Shown here piece by piece: positions 20,608-30,115 of a stretch of DNA of 64,000 nt. The DNA is from Catenulispora acidiphila DSM 44928 (GTDB lineage Bacteria > Actinomycetota > Actinomycetes > Streptomycetales > Catenulisporaceae), in the NCBI RefSeq assembly GCF_000024025.1, contig NC_013131.1, forward strand, positions 4,216,001 to 4,280,000, written 5' to 3'. The position numbers and the translations under genes were made by a program. Every line of letters begins with the position of its first letter. The first letter of the stretch is position 1. The notes under the pieces are model-generated. The model searched no databases. It had not been told where the DNA came from and saw only the letters and a program-made list of their open reading frames with translations.

Positions 20608-23586
20608 TCACCCTGATTCACTGGTGTGAATCTCTTCATGGGTATAGGCGCCCAACACCTCTCGAACAGCGCCTGCCTCCCGCGTGTCCGGCCGGAGCGC
20701 AGGCAGTGCCGCCCGCCATGCGCTCGTCGCGGCGGCCAGGTCGCCGAGGCGTTGGTGCGCGAAGCCGGAGTCCGCGAGGAACACCGCGACCGCATTGGGG
20801 TCGCCGAGGGCGCTGAAGAGGTCCATGGCCTCCTCGAAACTCTCCAGGGCTTCGAGCGCGCGGTCCGCTCTCAGGAGCGCACGACCCAGTTCGGCGAGAG
20901 CGAAGGCCTCGCCTTCGCGGAGTCCGTGTTCGCGCGTGAAGACCAGGCAGTCATACTGCGCAGATATGGCCGTTTCATGGTTGCCGAGTTCGGAGTGGCA
21001 AGCGGCCAGGTGGTGCCGGGCCATTGTCGCGTTCTCCGATTCGCCCAGTTCCTCACTGAGCGCCAGAGCCCGTTCGAGGTGAGCCAGAGCCCGTGCCGGT
21101 TCGCCGGACACGCGCAAGCACTTGCCGATGTTCACCAAGCTGGCGCATTCGCCCAGCCGGTTGCCGAGCCGCTTGAACAGGTCCGCCGCCGCCTCGTGGT
21201 CTGCCACGGCCTCGCGGTAGAAACCACGCTGGAAGTCCAGCAGGCCGCGCCGGTTCAGGACGCGGGCCTTTTCCAGGGAATCGTCGAGCCGCTCGGCGAG
21301 CCCGACGGCCGCCGACAGGTTCTCGTCGGATTCCTCGAATCTTCCGGTGAGCAGGGCCAGCAGGCCGCTGCTCTGGCGGCCGACGAGCTCGGCGGCCGTG
21401 TCGCCGGTGCGGACCGCGCCGTCGATCACCGCGGCCGCCGCGTCATGCCACAGCCGCCAGTGCCCCCGGGACCGCAGGTACCACTGGACGCGGTACAACA
21501 TGTCCGCGGCGACGCCGACCGCGTCGGCCGGGCCGGAGCCGGCCTGGACGATCAGTCCGCCGACGGCGCGGAACTCCTGATCCAGCCAGTCCAACGCTTC
21601 GTGGGCGGTGCCGAACCGGAGCGCGGGCGGGGATTCGTCGAGGTAGCCCGGCCGGGCAGCGGCGGCGGCATGGGCCAGCAGCTCTGCGTACGCCGCCAGA
21701 GTCCGGCCCGCGGCGCCGGCCAACGCCTCAGCGGACTCGGTCACGGACGCCGCCTCGCGGGCGAACACGCGCGTCAGATCGTGGTAGCGATAGCGCTCGG
21801 CGCCGGCCGGCTCCAGCAGGAAGGCGTCCACCAGGCTCTCCAGAAGAGTCTCAGCTGTCCGTGCCGGCACATCGAGGTGCACCGCTGCGTGCCAGACGGA
21901 CAGTGAGTCGACATCGGGGACGGCGAGCAGCCGGAAGGCTCGCGCCTGGTCGCCGGTCAGGTGCTGGTAGCTCATGTCGAGGGTCGCCCGCACTTGCAGG
22001 TCGTCCGTCCGGAGCTCGTCGAGGCGCCGTGCGGTGTCCCCCAGCCGGGCCGCCAGCGACTCCAGCCGCCAGGTCCGCCGCACCGCGAGTCGCGAGCCGG
22101 CGATGCGGATCGCCAGCGGCAGCCCGCCGCAGAGCTCGACGATGCGCGCCACCGCGGCCGGCTCGGACTGCGGCCGCTCGTCGCCCACGACTTTGCCGAA
22201 CAGGCTGGCGCCGTCCTGTGGTGACAGCGAGCCGAGCTCCAGCCGCGCACAGTCCTCCAGGCCGGGCAGGCGGCTGCGGCTCGTGATGATGACGCAGCAC
22301 CGGGGATCGGCCGGCAGCAGAGGCCGCACCTGTTGGACGTCACCGGCATCGTCCAGCAAAATCAGCACCCGCCGATCGGCCAGCATCGTGCGGAAGACCG
22401 CGGAGCGGTCCGCCACCCCCTCGGGCAGCGCGGAACCACCGTCTCCGAGGGCGCGGATGAACTCGGCGAGCGCGTGGCCGGGATCGACCGGGTGCCGGTC
22501 GGCGCCGCGCAGGTCGAGATAGAGCTGGCCGTCGGGGAACCGGTCCCGGACGGCGTGCGCGACCTGGACGGCGAGCGCCGATTTGCCGGTGCCCCCGGCT
22601 CCGGCGATGACGCAGACTCCCGGAGCCGGCACGCTGCCGGGCGGGTCGTGGGAAAGCAGCGTCTTGATGCGCTCCAGTTCGTGGTCGCGTCCGGTGAAGT
22701 CACGGATGCCGCGCGGCAACTGTGCGGGCGCGGCGGGATGAGGCGCGGGGGCGGCCGGTTCCGCATCCGACGTGGGATCCGGTGCCGGCTGCGACGGAAA
22801 TCGCGGCTCCGGGGAGGAGCCAGCCGGGTCGTTCCACGCCGGATCGTTCAACGCCGGGTCGGCGTTGAGGATCCGGCCGTGCAGCCGCTGCAGGTCCCGG
22901 CCGGGCTCGATCCCCAGCTCCTCGGCGAGCACGCGCCGCGCCGACCGGAAGGCGGCCAGCGCGTCGGCGCGCCGGCTCGCGCGGTAGAGCGCGAGCATGA
23001 GGAAGGAGTGCGCGCGTTCCAGAAGAGGTTGCCGGACGACGAGGTCGCGCAGTTCCGGCACGAGCAGTTCGTGGCGGTCCAAATGCAGGTCCGCGTCGAT
23101 CCGGGCCAACAGCGCGTCCAGCCGGAGTTCGGCGAGCCGGTCGACCTCGCCGCTCAGGGCGACGGACTGGACACCCTGCAACGGCTGCCCGCGCCAGACT
23201 CCCAGCGCGGTGTGTAAGAGGTCTGCGGCGCTTTCCCAAGCCTGCTCCGCGCTCCTGGCCTTGGCCGCTTCGACCAGAGCGGTGAAGCGGTGCAGATCCA
23301 GTTCCCCGTCCTGCACGACGAAGCGGTAGCCCCGGGCCTCGGTGCGCACCCGGTCGGCGGCGGTGCCGAGCGATCGTCGCAGCCTCATGACATAGGTGTG
23401 CAGCGTCTTGTGCGCACCGCCCGGTGCGGCGTCGGCCCACAGGTTCTCGGCGATGCGCTCGACCGAGACCACCCGGTTCGCGTTCAGGAGCATCGTGGCC
23501 AGGATGACTTGTTGCTTCGGCGCGACGATCCGTCTGTCGGCCGAGCCGTCGTGCGCCAGGAGCGGACCGAGGACCCCGAAACGCAT
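20608..23586 (-). CDS. AfsR/SARP-type regulator (winged helix-BTAD-NB-ARC-TPR)
   Basis: A 992-residue regulator. An OmpR-like winged helix (MRFGVLGPLLAHDG ... KTLHTYVMRLRRSLG ... EARGYRFVV) spans residues ~1-95 and a bacterial transcriptional activation domain ~100-245. After a Pro-rich linker comes an NB-ARC ATPase (P-loop CVIAGAGGTGKSALAVQVAHAV, Walker B RRVLILLDDAGDVQQ, IITSRSRL), then TPR repeats. SARP proteins activate secondary-metabolite clusters by binding direct repeats next to promoters. It is divergent from the Cys-rich peptide operon and is the natural candidate to switch it on. The ATG at 23586 is chosen because the protein then begins exactly at the conserved MRFGVLGP; longer in-frame starts lack support. 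Confidence 0.85.
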   Translation of the reverse strand: MRFGVLGPLLAHDGSADRRIVAPKQQVILATMLLNANRVVSVERIAENLWADAAPGGAHKTLHTYVMRLRRSLGTAADRVRTEARGYRFVVQDGELDLHRFTALVEAAKARSAEQAWESAADLLHTALGVWRGQPLQGVQSVALSGEVDRLAELRLDALLARIDADLHLDRHELLVPELRDLVVRQPLLERAHSFLMLALYRASRRADALAAFRSARRVLAEELGIEPGRDLQRLHGRILNADPALNDPAWNDPAGSSPEPRFPSQPAPDPTSDAEPAAPAPHPAAPAQLPRGIRDFTGRDHELERIKTLLSHDPPGSVPAPGVCVIAGAGGTGKSALAVQVAHAVRDRFPDGQLYLDLRGADRHPVDPGHALAEFIRALGDGGSALPEGVADRSAVFRTMLADRRVLILLDDAGDVQQVRPLLPADPRCCVIITSRSRLPGLEDCARLELGSLSPQDGASLFGKVVGDERPQSEPAAVARIVELCGGLPLAIRIAGSRLAVRRTWRLESLAARLGDTARRLDELRTDDLQVRATLDMSYQHLTGDQARAFRLLAVPDVDSLSVWHAAVHLDVPARTAETLLESLVDAFLLEPAGAERYRYHDLTRVFAREAASVTESAEALAGAAGRTLAAYAELLAHAAAAARPGYLDESPPALRFGTAHEALDWLDQEFRAVGGLIVQAGSGPADAVGVAADMLYRVQWYLRSRGHWRLWHDAAAAVIDGAVRTGDTAAELVGRQSSGLLALLTGRFEESDENLSAAVGLAERLDDSLEKARVLNRRGLLDFQRGFYREAVADHEAAADLFKRLGNRLGECASLVNIGKCLRVSGEPARALAHLERALALSEELGESENATMARHHLAACHSELGNHETAISAQYDCLVFTREHGLREGEAFALAELGRALLRADRALEALESFEEAMDLFSALGDPNAVAVFLADSGFAHQRLGDLAAATSAWRAALPALRPDTREAGAVREVLGAYTHEEIHTSESG

Positions 23587-23659
23587 GGACAAGTGCCGCT
23601 CCCTGGTGTGCCACCGAAACGTGACCAGAATGCCAGCCCCTTGAGTCAACATCCAAAAG

Positions 23660-23709: not shown

Positions 23710-23916
23710 ATGAAGTCGATCATCAGCCGCCTGAGTGACAAGGCACTCTCCGCTCTGCTGCGTGAGGAGACGGCCGGCGCGTGCATCCCGGAGCAGGGCA
23801 AGCCCTGCACGAACAGCTACTGCTCCTCGAGCGGCGCCTGGTACACCTGCTCGAGCACCTACTCCTGCACCGGCGCCTGCTCCTGCACCCCGCACTACAC
23901 CCAGAACCGCTGCTAA
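23710..23916 (+). CDS. Precursor of a Cys-rich ribosomal peptide
   Basis: A 68-residue precursor. Residues 1-24 look like an amphipathic leader (MKSIISRLSDKALSALLREE, then TAGA), not a hydrophobic Sec signal. Residues 25-68 form a 44-residue core with eight Cys (25, 33, 38, 47, 53, 57, 59, 68), starting CIPEQGKPC and ending HYTQNRC, otherwise Ser/Thr/Tyr-rich with one Trp. A-G-A before C25 fits the A-x-A rule for type I signal peptidases, and one is encoded in the same operon. Even cysteine number, no Cys in the leader and adjacent redox genes suggest four disulfides. No known RiPP class is recognised. GGGGA lies 5 nt before the ATG. First gene of the operon, 124 nt from the divergent AfsR-type regulator. 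Confidence 0.75.
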   Translation: MKSIISRLSDKALSALLREETAGACIPEQGKPCTNSYCSSSGAWYTCSSTYSCTGACSCTPHYTQNRC

Positions 23917-23986
23917 TCGACGCCCGAACGGCGGCGGTGTCGCGACAGCGGCCCGCCGTCCCGACGCCCAAGGCGGTGCCGAGCTC

Positions 23987-24520
23987 ATGACATTCCTGGC
24001 CATCTCCATGCGCACGCTGCTCGGGGTCGTCTTCGCCCTGGCCCTCGGCGGCAAGCTCCGGAGCCGCCGGTCCTTCGCCGACTTCGCGGCGTCCTTGCGC
24101 GAAATCCGCTGGCTGCCCGGCCCGGCACGCGCCGCGGCGCCGATCGGGGTCGTCGCCGTCGAGGCCGTGAGCATCGTGCTGCTGGCTGTTCCGGCGACCG
24201 TCCCGTTCGGTTTCGCTCTGACGCTCCTGACGCTGGCCGTGTTCACCGCCTCGGTCGGCTGGTCGCTGCGCCGGGGTGAGAGGGTGCGCTGTCAGTGCTT
24301 CGGCACGGACGGCGGTCCTATGGGCACCTGGGAGGTGGCCCGGAACTGCGTCCTGTCGGTCGCCGCCGCGGCCGGACTGCTCGCCTCGGCCGCCGGCCCG
24401 GCGGCGGCCGCTCCGGCCGGGTCCGCCGTGGCCGCGGCCGGCGGTGCCCTGGCCGCCGCCATGATCGTCCGTTGGGACGACCTGCGTTACGTGTTCTCTT
24501 CTCCGACGACCGGCCGTTGA
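23987..24520 (+). CDS. MauE/DoxX-like redox membrane protein
   Basis: A 177-residue integral membrane protein with about four hydrophobic helices (FLAISMRTLLGVVFALALGG; VVAVEAVSIVLLAVPA; FALTLLTLAVFTASVGW; a long Ala/Gly-rich C-terminal one). The loop after the third helix has the MauE hallmark C-x-C-F-G (VRCQCFGTDGG), followed by the usual WEVARNCVLSV. MauE in methylamine utilisation is needed, with MauD, for the disulfide-rich small subunit of methylamine dehydrogenase. No mau structural genes are here, so it most likely passes oxidising or reducing equivalents to the Cys-rich peptide. The ATG at 23987 is the first plausible start; its ribosome site is weak. Confidence 0.75.
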   Translation: MTFLAISMRTLLGVVFALALGGKLRSRRSFADFAASLREIRWLPGPARAAAPIGVVAVEAVSIVLLAVPATVPFGFALTLLTLAVFTASVGWSLRRGERVRCQCFGTDGGPMGTWEVARNCVLSVAAAAGLLASAAGPAAAAPAGSAVAAAGGALAAAMIVRWDDLRYVFSSPTTGR

Positions 24521-24568
24521 GCCGAACTCCCGTCGGAAGCCTTCCGTCCGCGTCCTAAGGAAGACCCC

Positions 24569-25129
24569 ATGCTCGGTACGCTCGCCGCGGTTGTCGCACT
24601 CCTCACCATCCTCACTTTGATCAACATCGTCTTGCTGTTCGCTGTCATCAGGAGGCTGCGAGGGGTGGAGCAGCAGCACGGCGCCGGATCCCTGGCGGAT
24701 CAGCTGCCTGCCGTGGGACGGCGGGTCGGAGAGTTCGAGGCCACGGCGCTCGACGGCTCGGTGCTCACCTCGGCCGAGGTCGCCGGGACGACGGACGGCG
24801 CCGACCGGCTCGTCGCGTTCGTGATGACGGGCTGCGAGCCCTGCGGACAGTTCATCTCCACGCTGCAGGACGGGTCCCCGGCCGGCTACGACCGGACCTT
24901 CTTCTTCATCACCGGCGATCCCCGGACCGACGCCACGGCCGCGCTGGTCGCCGAGCTCAGCGACCTGGGCCGGGTCGCGATGCTGGCCGAGGAGGGTCCG
25001 GTCGGCCCGGCCGTCGGCGGCATCGGAAGCTACCCGACGGTGCTGCGGATCAGCGACGGCGAGGTCGCGGCAGCCGGCCGCAAGCTGGACGAGGTGTTCC
25101 CCGGCGTACCCGTCCGGGCGGCCCGGTGA
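24569..25129 (+). CDS. Membrane-anchored MauD/TlpA-like thioredoxin-fold protein
   Basis: A 186-residue protein with one N-terminal transmembrane helix (LAAVVALLTILTLINIVLLFAV) and an extracytoplasmic thioredoxin-like domain. The redox motif C-E-P-C is in VAFVMTGCEPCGQFISTL near residues 89-92, and the cis-Pro region is IGSYPTVLRISDG. This matches MauD/TlpA organisation. Paired with the MauE-like protein just upstream, it should catalyse disulfide formation or isomerisation outside the membrane, presumably in the eight-Cys peptide. ATG start with AAGGAAG upstream. Its stop overlaps the GTG of the ABC transporter (GTGA), so the genes are translationally coupled. Confidence 0.8.
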   Translation: MLGTLAAVVALLTILTLINIVLLFAVIRRLRGVEQQHGAGSLADQLPAVGRRVGEFEATALDGSVLTSAEVAGTTDGADRLVAFVMTGCEPCGQFISTLQDGSPAGYDRTFFFITGDPRTDATAALVAELSDLGRVAMLAEEGPVGPAVGGIGSYPTVLRISDGEVAAAGRKLDEVFPGVPVRAAR

Positions 25130-26955
25130 CCGACGAAGCGCGCCGCGCGCCGGCCCGGCGGCCGGCCATGACCGCCCTCGGCTTGGGCTGGCGCGCGGCT
25201 CCGTTCGGCACCGCCATGCTGCTCGGGGTGACTGTCGTCCTCGGGCTGCTGCCGGGTGTGGCCGCCTGGACCGGGAAGCTGTTGGTGGACGAGCTCGCGC
25301 TCGGCCGGCACGCTGACGCCGGCCGGGCGACCGTGCTGGCCGTGGCATCGGCTCTGGCCGCGTTCGGGCTGATCGCCCTGGAGCTGATGTCCGGCCTGAT
25401 CGTGCGGTATGTCCAGCGCAAGGTATCCCTGCGGGTGCAGGACGTGCTGTACCGGCATGTCAACGGCTTTCCCGGGCTGCGCTACTTCGAAGATCCCGTC
25501 TTCCAGGATCGGTTGCGGCTCGCCGAGCAAGGCGCGCAGTCCGCACCGCAGGGGATGACGGACCTGCTGACCGGGAGCGTGCGCAGCGGCGTCGCCATCG
25601 CCGGTTTCCTCGGGGTGGTTCTGGTCGTCTGGCCTCCGATGGTCCCGCTGCTCGGCCTCGCGGCAGTGCCGGCCTACCTCGGGCAGCGGTCGATGGGTCG
25701 GCGGCATGTGCTCGTCACAGAGCAGAACATGGAGACCTTGCGGAAACGGTACTTCTACCAGCAACTTCTGACCGACCCCGCAACGGCCAAGGAGGTCCGG
25801 CTCTTCGGTCTGGGCCCGCTGTTCCACGGCCGGATGCTCAACGCCCTCGAGAGCACGTCCGGGGCTGATCTCGCGGTCGAGCGGCGCGGCGCGGCGGTCC
25901 AGGGCTGGCTCGCGCTGCTCACGGCCGGCGTCGCCGTCATCGGCGCGGTGGTGGTGGTGCGCGGTGTCGCGGGCGGTCGGCTGAGCGTGGGCGACGCCGC
26001 ACTGTTCACCGCGGCGGTGGCCGGCGTCCAGACCGCGGTGGCCGGCACGGTGGCCCAGTTCGCCCGCTCCGGGCAGAACCTGCGGCTGTTCCGGCACTAC
26101 CTGGACATCATCGAAGCCCCCGCCGACGTCGCCGGCGGCCGTACGCCGGCCAGTCCGCTGCGGACCGGTATCGAGCTGCGCGACATCTGGTTCCGGTACG
26201 ACCCCGGCGGCCCTTGGATCCTGCGCGGGGTCGATCTCGTGATCCCCCGCGGCTCGGCGGTCGGACTGGTCGGGCTCAACGGCGCGGGGAAGAGCACGCT
26301 GGTCAAGCTGCTGTGCCGCTTCTACGAACCCGAACGAGGACAGATCCTCTGGGACGGCGTCGATGTCCGGGACCTGGAGATCGACGACCTGCGCCGGCGG
26401 ATCGGCGCGACGTTCCAGGACTACAGCCGCTACGACGTCACCGCCGCCGAGAACGTCGGCATCGGCGACGTCGGCCGTCTGGACGACCTCCCGGCCGTCC
26501 GCCGCGCCGCGAGCGCCGCCGGCATCGACCAGACCCTGTCCGGTCTGCGCCAGGGGTACCAGACCCTGCTGAGCCGGATCTTCCTCGACGCGGATCGCCA
26601 GCGCGGCCTGGCCCTGTCCGGCGGCCAGTGGCAGCGCGTGGCCCTGGCCCGTTCGCTGATGCGGGAGCACGCCGACCTGCTCATCCTCGACGAGCCCAGC
26701 TCAGGTCTGGACGCGGCGGCGGAGCACGAGATCCACCGGGCACTGGCGCGACGGCGGGCCCAGCGCACGAGTCTGCTCATCTCGCACCGCCTCAATACCC
26801 TGCGCGACGCCGACGTCCTCGTGGTCCTCGCCGACGGCGAGATCACCGAACGCGGCACCCATGAAGAGCTGATGGCGGCGGACGGGCGATACGCGCGCCT
26901 CTTCCGGCTTCAGGCCGAGGGATATCAAGACTCGCACGTAGGAGCCGAGGCATGA
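25126..26955 (+). CDS. ABC exporter (fused permease-ATPase) for the peptide
   Basis: A 609-residue half-transporter with an N-terminal six-helix permease domain (e.g. APFGTAMLLGVTVVLGLLPG; GVAIAGFLGVVLVVWPPMV) and a C-terminal ATPase. Walker A is GLVGLNGAGKSTLVKL, signature LSGGQWQRVALARSLM, Walker B LLILDEPSSGLD and the H-loop SHRLNTL, all canonical. It has no N-terminal C39 peptidase domain, so leader removal must be done by another protein, fitting the S26 peptidase encoded next. It probably works as a homodimer exporting the precursor. It overlaps its neighbours by 4 nt on both sides (GTGA and ATGA). Confidence 0.85.
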   Translation: MTDEARRAPARRPAMTALGLGWRAAPFGTAMLLGVTVVLGLLPGVAAWTGKLLVDELALGRHADAGRATVLAVASALAAFGLIALELMSGLIVRYVQRKVSLRVQDVLYRHVNGFPGLRYFEDPVFQDRLRLAEQGAQSAPQGMTDLLTGSVRSGVAIAGFLGVVLVVWPPMVPLLGLAAVPAYLGQRSMGRRHVLVTEQNMETLRKRYFYQQLLTDPATAKEVRLFGLGPLFHGRMLNALESTSGADLAVERRGAAVQGWLALLTAGVAVIGAVVVVRGVAGGRLSVGDAALFTAAVAGVQTAVAGTVAQFARSGQNLRLFRHYLDIIEAPADVAGGRTPASPLRTGIELRDIWFRYDPGGPWILRGVDLVIPRGSAVGLVGLNGAGKSTLVKLLCRFYEPERGQILWDGVDVRDLEIDDLRRRIGATFQDYSRYDVTAAENVGIGDVGRLDDLPAVRRAASAAGIDQTLSGLRQGYQTLLSRIFLDADRQRGLALSGGQWQRVALARSLMREHADLLILDEPSSGLDAAAEHEIHRALARRRAQRTSLLISHRLNTLRDADVLVVLADGEITERGTHEELMAADGRYARLFRLQAEGYQDSHVGAEA

Positions 26956-27479
26956 AGCCGGCTATGGGGCTCCTCGAGAGCAGATCGGTGTTCCTGACGG
27001 CGGCGGCGGCGGTCTCGGCGATCGGCGTGGCCGGTGCGGTCGCGGCGCTCGGGGCACGTCGCGCGCTGGTGCTGATCACGGTGGCCGGCGGCAGCATGAG
27101 CCCGACCTACGCCGACGGCGAGAAGCTGCTGGTACGGCGTGGCCGCCCGCGCGTCGGCGACGTGGTCGTCTTCCGCCATCCGTGGCTCGAACGGACGAGG
27201 CAAAGAGCCACGACGATGACGGAAACCGCAGCCGCGAACGCGACACCGCGACCGGACGTCGACTGGATGGTCAAGCGAGTAGTCGCCACCGCCGGAAACC
27301 GGGTTCCCGAGGACTTTCGTCACGCCGTCGCAGCGCTCGACCCCGACACGATGGTCCCGTCCGGCTGCCTGCTGGTGCGCGGGGACAATCCGAGGAGTCT
27401 GGATTCGCGGCACTTCGGCTACGTTTCCACTGCCGATGTGCTGGGTGTTGCACTACGGCGACGACCGCACGCTCCATGA
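26952..27479 (+). CDS. S26-family signal peptidase
   Basis: A 175-residue membrane peptidase with one N-terminal helix (VFLTAAAAVSAIGVAGAVAAL). The catalytic Ser is in VAGGSMSPTYADGEKLLV, the general-base Lys in DWMVKRVVATAGNRVPE, and box E is LLVRGDNPRSLDSRHFGYV. All type I signal peptidase boxes are intact, so it should be active. As the last gene of the peptide operon it is the best candidate to cut the precursor after A-G-A. The ATG overlaps the ABC transporter stop (ATGA). It converges with an MFS gene 105 nt away, which marks the end of the peptide cluster. Confidence 0.85.
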   Translation: MKPAMGLLESRSVFLTAAAAVSAIGVAGAVAALGARRALVLITVAGGSMSPTYADGEKLLVRRGRPRVGDVVVFRHPWLERTRQRATTMTETAAANATPRPDVDWMVKRVVATAGNRVPEDFRHAVAALDPDTMVPSGCLLVRGDNPRSLDSRHFGYVSTADVLGVALRRRPHAP

Positions 27480-27584: not shown

Positions 27585-28841
27585 TTACGGCACCGGCCCG
27601 GAGCTGGTGGAGCTCTGCGCACCCGCGTATCGCCCCGGCTGCCGGACCGGTGCGGACAGCCGCCGCTCGGACCACCTCACGACCGGCGGCACCGCCAGGC
27701 CGGTGACGGCGAACATCGCGCCGACGATCCACCAGCCGGGTGTGCCCCAGTCGATGCACAGGGCGATCAGCAGGCCTGGGCCGATGGTCACGCCGAGGCC
27801 CATGCCCATGCCGAACAGGCCTTGGTACTGGCCTACGGCGTGGCTTGGCGCGAGGGCGAAGGAGAGCTCGAAGCCGCCGGCGGATTGCCAGATCTCGCCG
27901 ATGGTGTGGACGACGACGCCGGCCAGGACGAGCGTGACCGTCAGCCAGGCCGGCAGGCCTGACAGGGTCGAGAAGATGGCGCAGGAGGCCAGGAAGGCGA
28001 ATCCGGAGCGCCGGAAGGCCAGGCCGCCGGCCTTCGGGGTGTCGATGCTCCTGCTGGCCCGGACTTGGAACACGACCACGATGGCGGTGTTCACCAGCAT
28101 CACCGCCGAGACCGACCAGCGCGGGGCGTGGGTGCGGCTGAGCAGCCACAGCGGGATGGCGGCGGTCAGCACCCGGAACTGGATCGCCATCACGCCGTCC
28201 AGGAGCGTCAGGGCCAGGTACGGCCGGTCGCGCAGCGCGATCCACGTGCGGCCGCGGCCGGCCGGCTCCGGCGGCAGGGGCGGGAGCAGCAACACGACAC
28301 CCGCCGCGACCGCGCTGCACGCCGCGCTCACCGCGAGCAGCAGCAGATACGCGCGACGGGTGCCGATCTGGATGCCGAAGCCGGCCAGGACCGCGCCCAG
28401 GGCGATGCCGATGTTCGTCACCGCGCGCAGATACGCGCGGTACTCGGCCGGGCGGTCGCCGCCGTAGTGCTTCACCAACGGGCCGCGGGCGGCCGGTCCC
28501 GTGCTCTGGGCGACGGCCGCGACCGAGGCGAAGACCAGGAACGGCCAGAAGCCGCGGGTCAGGCACAGCCCTGCCATCGCCAGCGCCGCGGCCGTCAGGG
28601 TGAGCGCGTAGGATCCGCGCGCGCCGCGCCGGTCGGCGAGGTGCCCCACCGGGACCCCGGCGGCCAGCGCCACGGCGCCGGCCACCGTCAGCCCGATGCC
28701 GACCCGGGAGGCGGCCAGGCCCATGGCGCGGGTGAAATACAGCACGCTCGCGGTCAGGTAGACGCCGTAGCCGGTCATGTTCACCGCGGTCGCGATCGCG
28801 AGCACCCGCCGAGGCCCGGACTCCGGGACGGGGAGTCTCAT
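27585..28841 (-). CDS. MFS exporter
   Basis: A 418-residue transporter of the major facilitator superfamily with about twelve hydrophobic segments. The loop 2-3 signature is visible as GVPVGHLADRRGARGSYAL, and an opening helix pair is VLAIATAVNMTGYGVYLTASVLYF. Such proteins are usually drug/proton antiporters. The ATG overlaps the stop of the ATP-grasp gene (ATGA), and this is the last gene of a seven-gene minus-strand operon. It therefore most likely exports the operon product or provides self-resistance. No terminator is obvious in the short gap before the convergent signal peptidase gene. Confidence 0.85.
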   Translation of the reverse strand: MRLPVPESGPRRVLAIATAVNMTGYGVYLTASVLYFTRAMGLAASRVGIGLTVAGAVALAAGVPVGHLADRRGARGSYALTLTAAALAMAGLCLTRGFWPFLVFASVAAVAQSTGPAARGPLVKHYGGDRPAEYRAYLRAVTNIGIALGAVLAGFGIQIGTRRAYLLLLAVSAACSAVAAGVVLLLPPLPPEPAGRGRTWIALRDRPYLALTLLDGVMAIQFRVLTAAIPLWLLSRTHAPRWSVSAVMLVNTAIVVVFQVRASRSIDTPKAGGLAFRRSGFAFLASCAIFSTLSGLPAWLTVTLVLAGVVVHTIGEIWQSAGGFELSFALAPSHAVGQYQGLFGMGMGLGVTIGPGLLIALCIDWGTPGWWIVGAMFAVTGLAVPPVVRWSERRLSAPVRQPGRYAGAQSSTSSGPVP

Positions 28842-30115
28842 GTGAGCGACCACAGCCCCGGCAGACGGTCGGCCGGCGCGTCCTGGACCGTGAAGCGCAC
28901 CGAGTCCACGAGTTCGGTCGCCAGTTTGCGCGCCAGTGCGGGGTCATCCGCGCCGACGACCACGAAGCCGGCCCGGTCGGAGGACTGTCGCAGGGGTTTG
29001 ATGATGTCGCCGGGGGCGACCAGTAGTTGCGCGTGCAGGACCGCGGGATGCGCCAGCACCTCCTCCCACCCCTCGATCGCGGTCACCTGGCCCGGCGGCG
29101 GAACCAGGTAGCGGACGGCGGCGCCGCGCGTCGGCTCCAGGGAAGTGTGCGTGCCGGGCAGGCCCAGCATGTCCTCGAAGACGAGCCCGAAGACCTCCAG
29201 GTCCGGGATCGCGTGCTGCAGCATGGTGTGGATCCAGTCGCCGCCGAAGCGGCCGTGCACCTCGCCGAGCACCGGGCCGTCGGCGGTGAGCCACAGCTCG
29301 ACGTGGAAGGCGCCGGTGCGCAGGCCCAGCGTGGACAGGGCCGCGGCCACCCGGTCCCGGATCCGGTCGTGCTCGGTCTCGGAGATCTCGGCCGGCAGCA
29401 CGTGGCCGACCTCGACGAAGAACGGCGGCGGCGCCTTCTCCTTCGCGGTGACGGCCAGGATCCGCGGCTCGCCGCCGAGGAAGACCCCTTCGACGCTGAA
29501 CTCGGGACCCTCGACGAACTCCTCGATCAGGAAAGGGCTTTCGTCCGGCAGCGCCGCGACCGCGCCGGGCAGGTCGGCGATCCCGCGCACGAGGCTGACC
29601 CCGATGCTTCCCATCGCGTCGCGGGGTTTGACGACCCACGGCCCCGGCTTCGAGGACTTCGAAAGCTCCTCCAGGAAATCGGCTGCCGCCCGGACATCAG
29701 CACACAGCCGCACCGCCGGCTGCGCGAAGCCCGCCTCGGCCAGCGCCGCACGGCACAGGTCCTTGGTACGGATCCGGCGCACGGCCTCGGGCTCGTTGCC
29801 CGGCGCCCCCAGCGCCCGGGCCACCTCGGCGACGGCGACCTGCGCCATCTCCTGCAGCGCGAACACCGCGTCGAACCGTTCGCCGTCGCGAGCCCGGGAC
29901 CGCGCCCAGGCCACGGTCTGCTCCGAGGGCACGAAGTCGACGGCCGAGACCGCGTCCGCGGCGGCGCTGACGGTCGGGGTCCCGGCCAGGGCGTCGGGCC
30001 GGTTCACGACGTGCGTGCGGATCCCCCTGGACCGTGCCTGGGCCAGGGCCTGCTCGGCCATGACCGTGCTGATCGGCACCGGACGCGCACCGCCGACGAA
30101 TAACAGGTTCTTCAC
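28838..30115 (-). CDS. ATP-grasp ligase
   Basis: A 425-residue ATP-grasp enzyme. The N-terminal domain starts KNLLFVGGARPVPISTVM. The ATP-binding core shows WVVKPRDAMGSIGVSLV near residue 140 and the adenine-binding LIEEFVEGPEFSVEGV near residue 200. The metal-binding strand is HVELWLTADGPVLGEVHGR (E...E-x-x-G-R), the usual E-x-N-x-R position with His for Asn. Family members activate a carboxylate as acyl phosphate and join it to an amine or thiol, as in dipeptide ligases. The GTG start overlaps the upstream stop (GTGA), and the MFS gene overlaps its end, so it belongs firmly to the operon. It may couple the acyl/amino product of the operon to an amino acid. Confidence 0.8.
   Translation of the reverse strand: MKNLLFVGGARPVPISTVMAEQALAQARSRGIRTHVVNRPDALAGTPTVSAAADAVSAVDFVPSEQTVAWARSRARDGERFDAVFALQEMAQVAVAEVARALGAPGNEPEAVRRIRTKDLCRAALAEAGFAQPAVRLCADVRAAADFLEELSKSSKPGPWVVKPRDAMGSIGVSLVRGIADLPGAVAALPDESPFLIEEFVEGPEFSVEGVFLGGEPRILAVTAKEKAPPPFFVEVGHVLPAEISETEHDRIRDRVAAALSTLGLRTGAFHVELWLTADGPVLGEVHGRFGGDWIHTMLQHAIPDLEVFGLVFEDMLGLPGTHTSLEPTRGAAVRYLVPPPGQVTAIEGWEEVLAHPAVLHAQLLVAPGDIIKPLRQSSDRAGFVVVGADDPALARKLATELVDSVRFTVQDAPADRLPGLWSLT

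Follow-up and report, generated by a model that had tools for sequence, protein, structure and literature searches.

Gene content of the locus

We analysed a five-gene cluster of Catenulispora acidiphila DSM 44928 that probably encodes a disulfide-rich ribosomal peptide together with proteins for its export, folding and cleavage. The cluster lies at positions 23710 to 27479 of a 64,000-nucleotide stretch (NC_013131.1, positions 4,216,001 to 4,280,000; hereafter the window), and the genome carrying the window is one contig of 10,467,782 bases. The first frame (23710-23916, + strand) specifies a precursor peptide of 68 residues with eight cysteines. Its leader (23710..23781, + strand, 24 residues) ends in AGA immediately ahead of the first cysteine, where cleavage is predicted, and its core (23782..23916, + strand, stop codon included) has 44 residues and eight cysteines, one of them the C-terminal residue, spaced 7-4-8-5-3-1-8 residues apart. 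Four genes follow on the same strand. They encode a MauE-family membrane protein (23987..24520; PF07291, 87 bits against a cut-off of 27) with a C102-x-C104 motif; a membrane-anchored thioredoxin-like (MauD/TlpA-like) protein (24569..25129) with CEPC at residues 89-92 and a conserved Pro156; an ATP-binding cassette (ABC) exporter with fused membrane and ATPase domains (25126..26955; PF00005, 101.6 bits); and an S26 (type I) signal peptidase (26952..27479; PF10502, 72 bits; TIGR02227, 58.2 bits against a cut-off of 47). The reading frames and the Pfam and TIGR matches agree with the initial annotation of this DNA as to the 68-residue peptide, its eight-cysteine core and the five-gene set. It had counted three 4-nt overlaps, but only the TlpA/ABC and ABC/S26 junctions overlap by 4 nt; gaps of 70 nt and 48 nt separate the peptide gene from MauE and MauE from TlpA.

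Divergent from the cluster lies a gene for an AfsR/SARP-like regulator with BTAD, NB-ARC and TPR domains (20608..23652, - strand; the actual start may be a later ATG), as had been annotated, and this gene is also divergent in two related loci, L009 and L023. A Pfam scan found no C39 peptidase domain in the exporter, again as annotated. Among 18 window products scanned, a subset of the window's frames, Pfam gave no match to lanthionine, YcaO, radical-SAM or cyclase families or to the class-defining enzymes of lanthipeptides, thiopeptides or lasso peptides, in line with the earlier statement that no lanthionine, YcaO, radical-SAM, cyclase or lasso gene is near.

Recurrence of the five-gene module

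A paralogous locus in the same genome (L020) carries all five genes together with AfsR-like genes. Within the genus, four further loci (L009, from a Catenulispora metagenome assembly, and L023, L024 and L025) have the set in the window's order; L009 is cut off within the set by a contig end, and the S26 gene was not detected in L024. Our first peptide profile, a six-row Catenulispora alignment, matched only 2 of 296 genomes, namely the genome of origin and one with a weak match that lacked partner genes (L091). The wider family was reached through the TlpA-like protein as bait instead. The TlpA-like profile matched 16 of the 296 genomes of the class, and at the 30 loci so collected (L061-L090) we found the peptide at 29, MauE at 29, the ABC exporter at 28, the S26 peptidase at 28, an AfsR-like gene at 17 and all five module genes at 26. 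All five were also present at three further TlpA places outside the genome of origin (L125-L127).

We then built a peptide profile (A3) from 42 peptides, 36 of them taken from the first lists. Those lists had been filtered for at least four cysteines and an A-x-A-like or looser motif, so they were blind to cysteine parity but favoured frames rich in cysteine and bearing A-x-A. This profile matched 17 of the 296 genomes of the class (including the genome of the doubtful L124), 7 of 14 in the window's family and, in the family to which another genome (G414) belongs, 106 of 250, one of which carries peptides at 10 places; among 296 genomes spread over the phylum it matched two, the genome of origin included. 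These genome counts are lower bounds, since scoring was limited to the top candidates from a permissive initial pass. The 44 peptide-bait loci comprise four from a first set (L121-L124), 14 from the window's family and 26 chosen by hand among the matches listed for G414's family, mostly the stronger ones and thus not a random sample. TlpA was found at 36 of them, the ABC exporter at 36, S26 at 35, MauE at 30 and all five genes at 28.

Across 82 loci, all five genes occur together at 61, where they are arranged in 28 ways. The commonest arrangement is that of the window (18 of 61), and the genes share a single strand in 39 of 61. The window's gene order recurs on plasmid SNP1 of Streptomyces nigrescens (NZ_AP026074.1), with an AfsR-like gene upstream. 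By comparison, none of 20 arbitrary control regions from ten of these genomes contained any of the five module genes, and two contained an AfsR-like gene. The initial annotation had suggested looking for the genes in relatives, where they could have occurred separately; the set stays together in distant relatives despite reshuffled order and strand. It had also suggested a search of other actinomycetes for the same gene order with variable cores; the set and the variable cores do recur, in the window's order or in others.

Some orphan peptides sit in genomes that also carry complete clusters. One genome of the window's family (G004; L187-L193) has nine peptide places, with several complete clusters and one peptide that stands alone (L190); the 24-residue leader of this orphan is identical to those of both peptides of the complete L187 locus, as would suit maturation in trans.

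The precursor and its cysteines

Conservation of the small frame, a check that the initial annotation had proposed, was assessed by comparison with relatives. Against L009, 12 of 17 nucleotide differences fall in third codon positions. Against the more distant L023 there are 45 differences, spread evenly over codon positions (16, 16 and 13); the leader is conserved, and the core is fast-evolving, with a nonsynonymous rate (dN) of 0.39 and a synonymous rate (dS) of 0.23. Pooled over 25 non-overlapping pairs of relatives, dN/dS is 0.31 for the leader and 0.61 for the core, indicating purifying selection on both; pooled dN is 0.194 for the core versus 0.086 for the leader, and core dN exceeds leader dN in 19 of the 25 pairs. 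In the aligned core columns of these pairs, cysteine columns are identical in 166 of 166 cases and other columns in 512 of 744, a count that ignores cysteines facing gaps (L084 has eight cysteines and its paired L086 has six). Because pooled dN/dS is below 1 and the cysteine columns all match, these substitution patterns indicate that the small frame is translated and that its cysteines are under selection.

Before most counts, we dropped two peptides: L124, a weak match with four cysteines ahead of a long frame, and L197, a decayed copy with five. Core lengths range from 28 to 57 residues, and the cores contain 4, 6, 8 or 10 cysteines, six being the commonest number (66 of 102). The total cysteine number is even in 102 of 104 peptides. 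The two odd cases are L090_6086, with seven cysteines of which six are in the core and the extra one in the leader, and L197; after removal of the decayed copy and of L124, a probable false match, all 102 cores have an even number. The rule persists among representatives, with even numbers in 39 of 39 at below 40% identity and in 62 of 62, 75 of 75 and 87 of 87 in the other representative sets, whereas among random small frames of the control regions the number was even in 35 and odd in 23. If fully oxidised, the 44-residue window peptide would have a computed monoisotopic mass of about 4726.78 Da, 8.06 under the 4734.84 Da of the reduced form.

Some loci carry different precursors in tandem, six at L171:6079-8000 and four at L181:7886-8700, which resemble one another in the leader but diverge in the core. 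In the decayed precursor (L197:8000, genome G011), the leader end ETAGAC is followed by a long cysteine-poor stretch, and no partner genes were found.

The window peptide matched no Pfam or NCBIfam model, and ten of its relatives had no match above cut-off either (11 peptides scanned in all). A profile search of the peptide family against solved structures gave nothing at E values up to 1, and Foldseek with a weak model of the core gave no match below E 6.

A conserved leader without a hydrophobic stretch

Leaders typically span some 24 residues and approximate the pattern G/A-D-R-L-L...L-V-P...A-x-A. An A-x-A motif lies ahead of the first core cysteine in 99 of 102 peptides, compared with a mean of 51.7 after shuffling of the same stretch, although this count is partly favoured by selection, as the founding peptide list had itself been filtered for such a motif. 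AGA immediately precedes the first cysteine in six of 102 peptides, including that of the window, and position -2 is glycine in only three of 39 representatives. The median hydropathy of the best 15-residue segment is 0.58 for leaders and 2.82 for the TlpA-like anchors of the same loci, and the helical moment, a measure of amphipathicity, lies above 95% of a leader's own shuffles in 47 of 102 leaders. Because the leaders have no hydrophobic stretch and their hydropathy is far under that of the membrane anchors, we rejected Sec secretion of the peptide. We also rejected double-glycine processing by a C39 peptidase, as the exporter has no C39 match and the leader ends in A-x-A.

Over 741 pairs of representatives, identity is 0.41 in the leader and 0.25 in the core, and the leader is the more similar part in 690. 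A conserved leader joined to a variable core would place these peptides among the ribosomally synthesized and post-translationally modified peptides (RiPPs) in the broad sense.

Conserved motifs of the partner proteins

Among aligned family members, the MauE C-x-C motif is kept in 67 of 67, and the CxxC motif of the TlpA-like protein in 73 of 75, with an invariant proline after it. Ser48 and Lys108 of the S26 peptidase, presumably its catalytic pair, are invariant among aligned relatives, in keeping with the initial description of the enzyme as intact. These counts take in only matches above 70 bits. The ATPase motifs are kept across the exporter family. The window's TlpA-like protein has one hydrophobic membrane segment, and the S26 peptidase has one at its N terminus. 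The former carries the expected motifs but has no family match above cut-off, and its profile search against solved structures gave nothing at E values up to 0.1; six of nine scanned relatives reached the AhpC-TSA or Redoxin cut-off. We assign it to the TlpA/MauD type because of these motifs and relatives.

A cysteine in the first membrane segment of MauE (55% of cases) tends to co-occur with one in the TlpA anchor (45%) over 61 loci (Fisher p 0.009, uncorrected for relatedness). We do not claim redox coupling through these membrane cysteines, since the p value ignores relatedness. The window's own MauE and TlpA-like protein have neither cysteine.

The window's genome also contains a second type of MauE locus (L022:6881-10093; G000:C1:6570880-6574092), with a MauE-like protein and a thioredoxin-like protein bearing CATC. 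Two secreted proteins are encoded there, with twin-arginine-like signals, 11 cysteines each in the mature part and no Pfam match; this odd number contrasts with the even-cysteine peptide family. The locus suggests that MauE/TlpA pairs also serve conventionally secreted cysteine-rich proteins.

Neighbouring genes

Downstream of the cluster, on the opposite strand, lie an ATP-grasp ligase gene (28838-30115) and an MFS gene. We rejected both as cluster members, as tblastn was negative for them in L020, L023, L024 and L025, whose flanks are long enough for this test; set aside were L009 and L026, whose sequence stops within the cluster, and L021, L022, L027 and L028, which are not cluster loci. 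A defence system was likewise rejected, PADLOC having given no match for four window proteins. In a clustering of the called gene products, a test of limited sensitivity, no further protein family appeared in more than seven of the 82 loci. A large permease family is present in seven (L078:7329-10193 and six others); the one permease scanned is weakly LolE/FtsX-like, below cut-offs, and could be a self-protection transporter.

A proposed maturation route

We consider it probable that this is a ribosomal-peptide cluster in which the sole maturation is export, full cysteine pairing and leader removal. Such a route fits because the module, the leader, the even cysteine number and the intact active-site motifs are conserved while the core is variable. 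Under this proposal, expression would be controlled by the AfsR/SARP-like regulator, and the short, amphipathic, non-Sec leader would deliver the still unfolded precursor to the ABC exporter, which has no peptidase domain of its own. Once exported, the peptide would have its disulfides, four in the window's case, formed or shuffled by the anchored TlpA-like protein with its CxxC motif, and MauE would use its CxC motif to regenerate that protein. The S26 peptidase would cleave after A-x-A to release the 44-residue peptide. The product may be a bacteriocin-like competition peptide, an idea prompted by the diversified cores, the several copies per genome and the tandem precursors; this is the least certain step. 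The initial annotation had already proposed disulfide-only maturation, which the strict evenness of cysteine number and the lack of a widely recurrent enzyme, within the sensitivity of our clustering, appear to support.

Several points weigh against this proposal. Proteins of the TlpA/ResA type often act as reductants of their substrates, not as oxidants, so electron flow through MauE and TlpA could run either way, and from sequence an oxidase role of the pair is not distinguishable from an isomerase or reductase role. At 14 of the 44 peptide-bait loci no MauE was detected. Seven of the 44 lack all four partners and one more has S26 only, so some precursors must use partners encoded elsewhere, be dead or be false matches. 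The clustering of gene products was insensitive, grouping S26 in 21 loci versus the 70 of 82 found by profiles, and no immunity gene was identified. Models from AlphaFold2 were poor, with predicted local distance difference test (pLDDT) scores of 60 for the precursor and 70 for the core, so the predicted fold gives no support to a disulfide pattern.

One alternative is that the cysteines serve as ligands of a metal or cofactor and are held in the reduced state by MauE and TlpA, as happens in cytochrome c maturation or when a metallopeptide is pre-loaded. TlpA-like proteins with a membrane partner do act as reductases in other systems, and even cysteine numbers would suit metal sites too. However, the cysteine spacing varies widely among cores, inspection by eye showed no metal-site motif common to them, and a metal or cofactor gene is not among the recurrent neighbours, within the limited sensitivity of that test; we regard this alternative as unlikely. 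It is rather more doubtful that the peptides are thioether-bearing or otherwise modified RiPPs whose enzyme is encoded elsewhere, the disulfides being incidental. The window core is rich in serine and threonine, and some RiPPs are known to depend on enzymes encoded outside their cluster; yet serine and threonine together are fewer than the cysteines in 59 of 102 cores, an even cysteine number is not needed for lanthionine formation, and no extra enzyme recurs in the 82 loci at the sensitivity available. On the serine and threonine counts and this recurrence test, we disfavoured lanthionine-type chemistry. That MauE and TlpA merely adjoin the peptide, as redox genes of general use in the envelope or as remnants of a methylamine dehydrogenase maturation system, is very improbable: MauE and MauD are named for methylamine dehydrogenase maturation, and the 14 peptide-bait loci without detected MauE would suit this idea, but the pair is closely associated with the peptide over many genomes and 28 arrangements and in none of 20 control regions, and the methylamine dehydrogenase families are unmatched in this genome (a weak point, as that search matched no control genome either).

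If the disulfide-only route is correct, peptides of this kind occur in 106 of the 250 searched genomes of one actinomycete family, and the clusters would represent a natural modular bacterial system for multi-disulfide mini-proteins and would allow a direct test of MauE and MauD/TlpA function. The cluster family is large and little studied and could, on the same assumption, be a source of new bioactive peptides.

Comparison with known systems

Class II bacteriocins and glycocins have dedicated thiol-disulfide oxidoreductases of the PedC and BdbB types. They resemble the present system in combining an exported cysteine-containing peptide, an ABC exporter and a thioredoxin-like partner. In contrast, they use a double-glycine leader cut by a C39 domain, whereas here the leader ends in A-x-A, a separate S26 peptidase and MauE are present, and no C39 domain was matched.

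TMcins (PMC13252029), which have been studied experimentally, are RiPPs that share leader removal, secretion and a cluster-encoded CxxC protein for disulfide formation, TmcD; they differ in having a transmembrane helix in the precursor, one disulfide, an S2P-type protease and an oxidoreductase of the DsbA family. Actifensin (PMC6989792) is an actinobacterial cysteine-rich antimicrobial with a leader, variable paralogues and ABC transporters, and its disulfides were inferred from a mass loss of 6 Da. It differs in its six cysteines, 32-residue leader, and the subtilisin-like protease and LuxR regulator in its locus, and the words MauE and thioredoxin are absent from its text. In the methylamine dehydrogenase system, the same kind of pair, a membrane protein and a thioredoxin-like protein, serves a cysteine-rich exported protein (see also PMC7794033), whereas the present locus has no dehydrogenase subunit and the substrate would be a short peptide whose gene adjoins that of an ABC exporter.

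The closest precedent is decRiPPter, a 2020 genome-mining study (PMC7794033), the only report noted as joining MauE with RiPPs among the open-access papers listed by our literature searches, a scope outside which fall subscription papers and bioRxiv preprints not in PMC. It describes three candidate RiPP families from Streptomyces that contain mauE, in one case along with mauD, and precursors of at least eight cysteines, and it suggests a part in modifying the precursor; the clusters had been selected for a peptidase, a transporter and a regulator. In that paper, a disulfide role for MauE is described as speculation, and what MauD does as unclear. The window shares with these families MauE, a TlpA-like protein and an eight-cysteine precursor, other members here having 4 to 10 cysteines. 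Judged by description, not by precursor sequence, the present clusters are most probably of the same kind. The decRiPPter account is a prediction confined to Streptomyces, and its treatment of MauE does not include the leader, the even-cysteine rule, the S26 identity or the wider spread. The initial annotation recognised no named RiPP class here; the kind was partly anticipated. On balance, we favour the view that these clusters form a large unnamed actinomycete class, defined by disulfide-only chemistry, folding coupled to export through MauE and TlpA, a leader of neither Sec nor double-glycine type on an ABC exporter, a dedicated signal peptidase, and freely diversifying cores whose cysteines are strictly gained or lost in pairs. 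To the idea that decRiPPter anticipated in part, the present analysis would add the leader, the even-cysteine rule, the logic of the S26 peptidase and ABC exporter, the reshuffled module and its spread.

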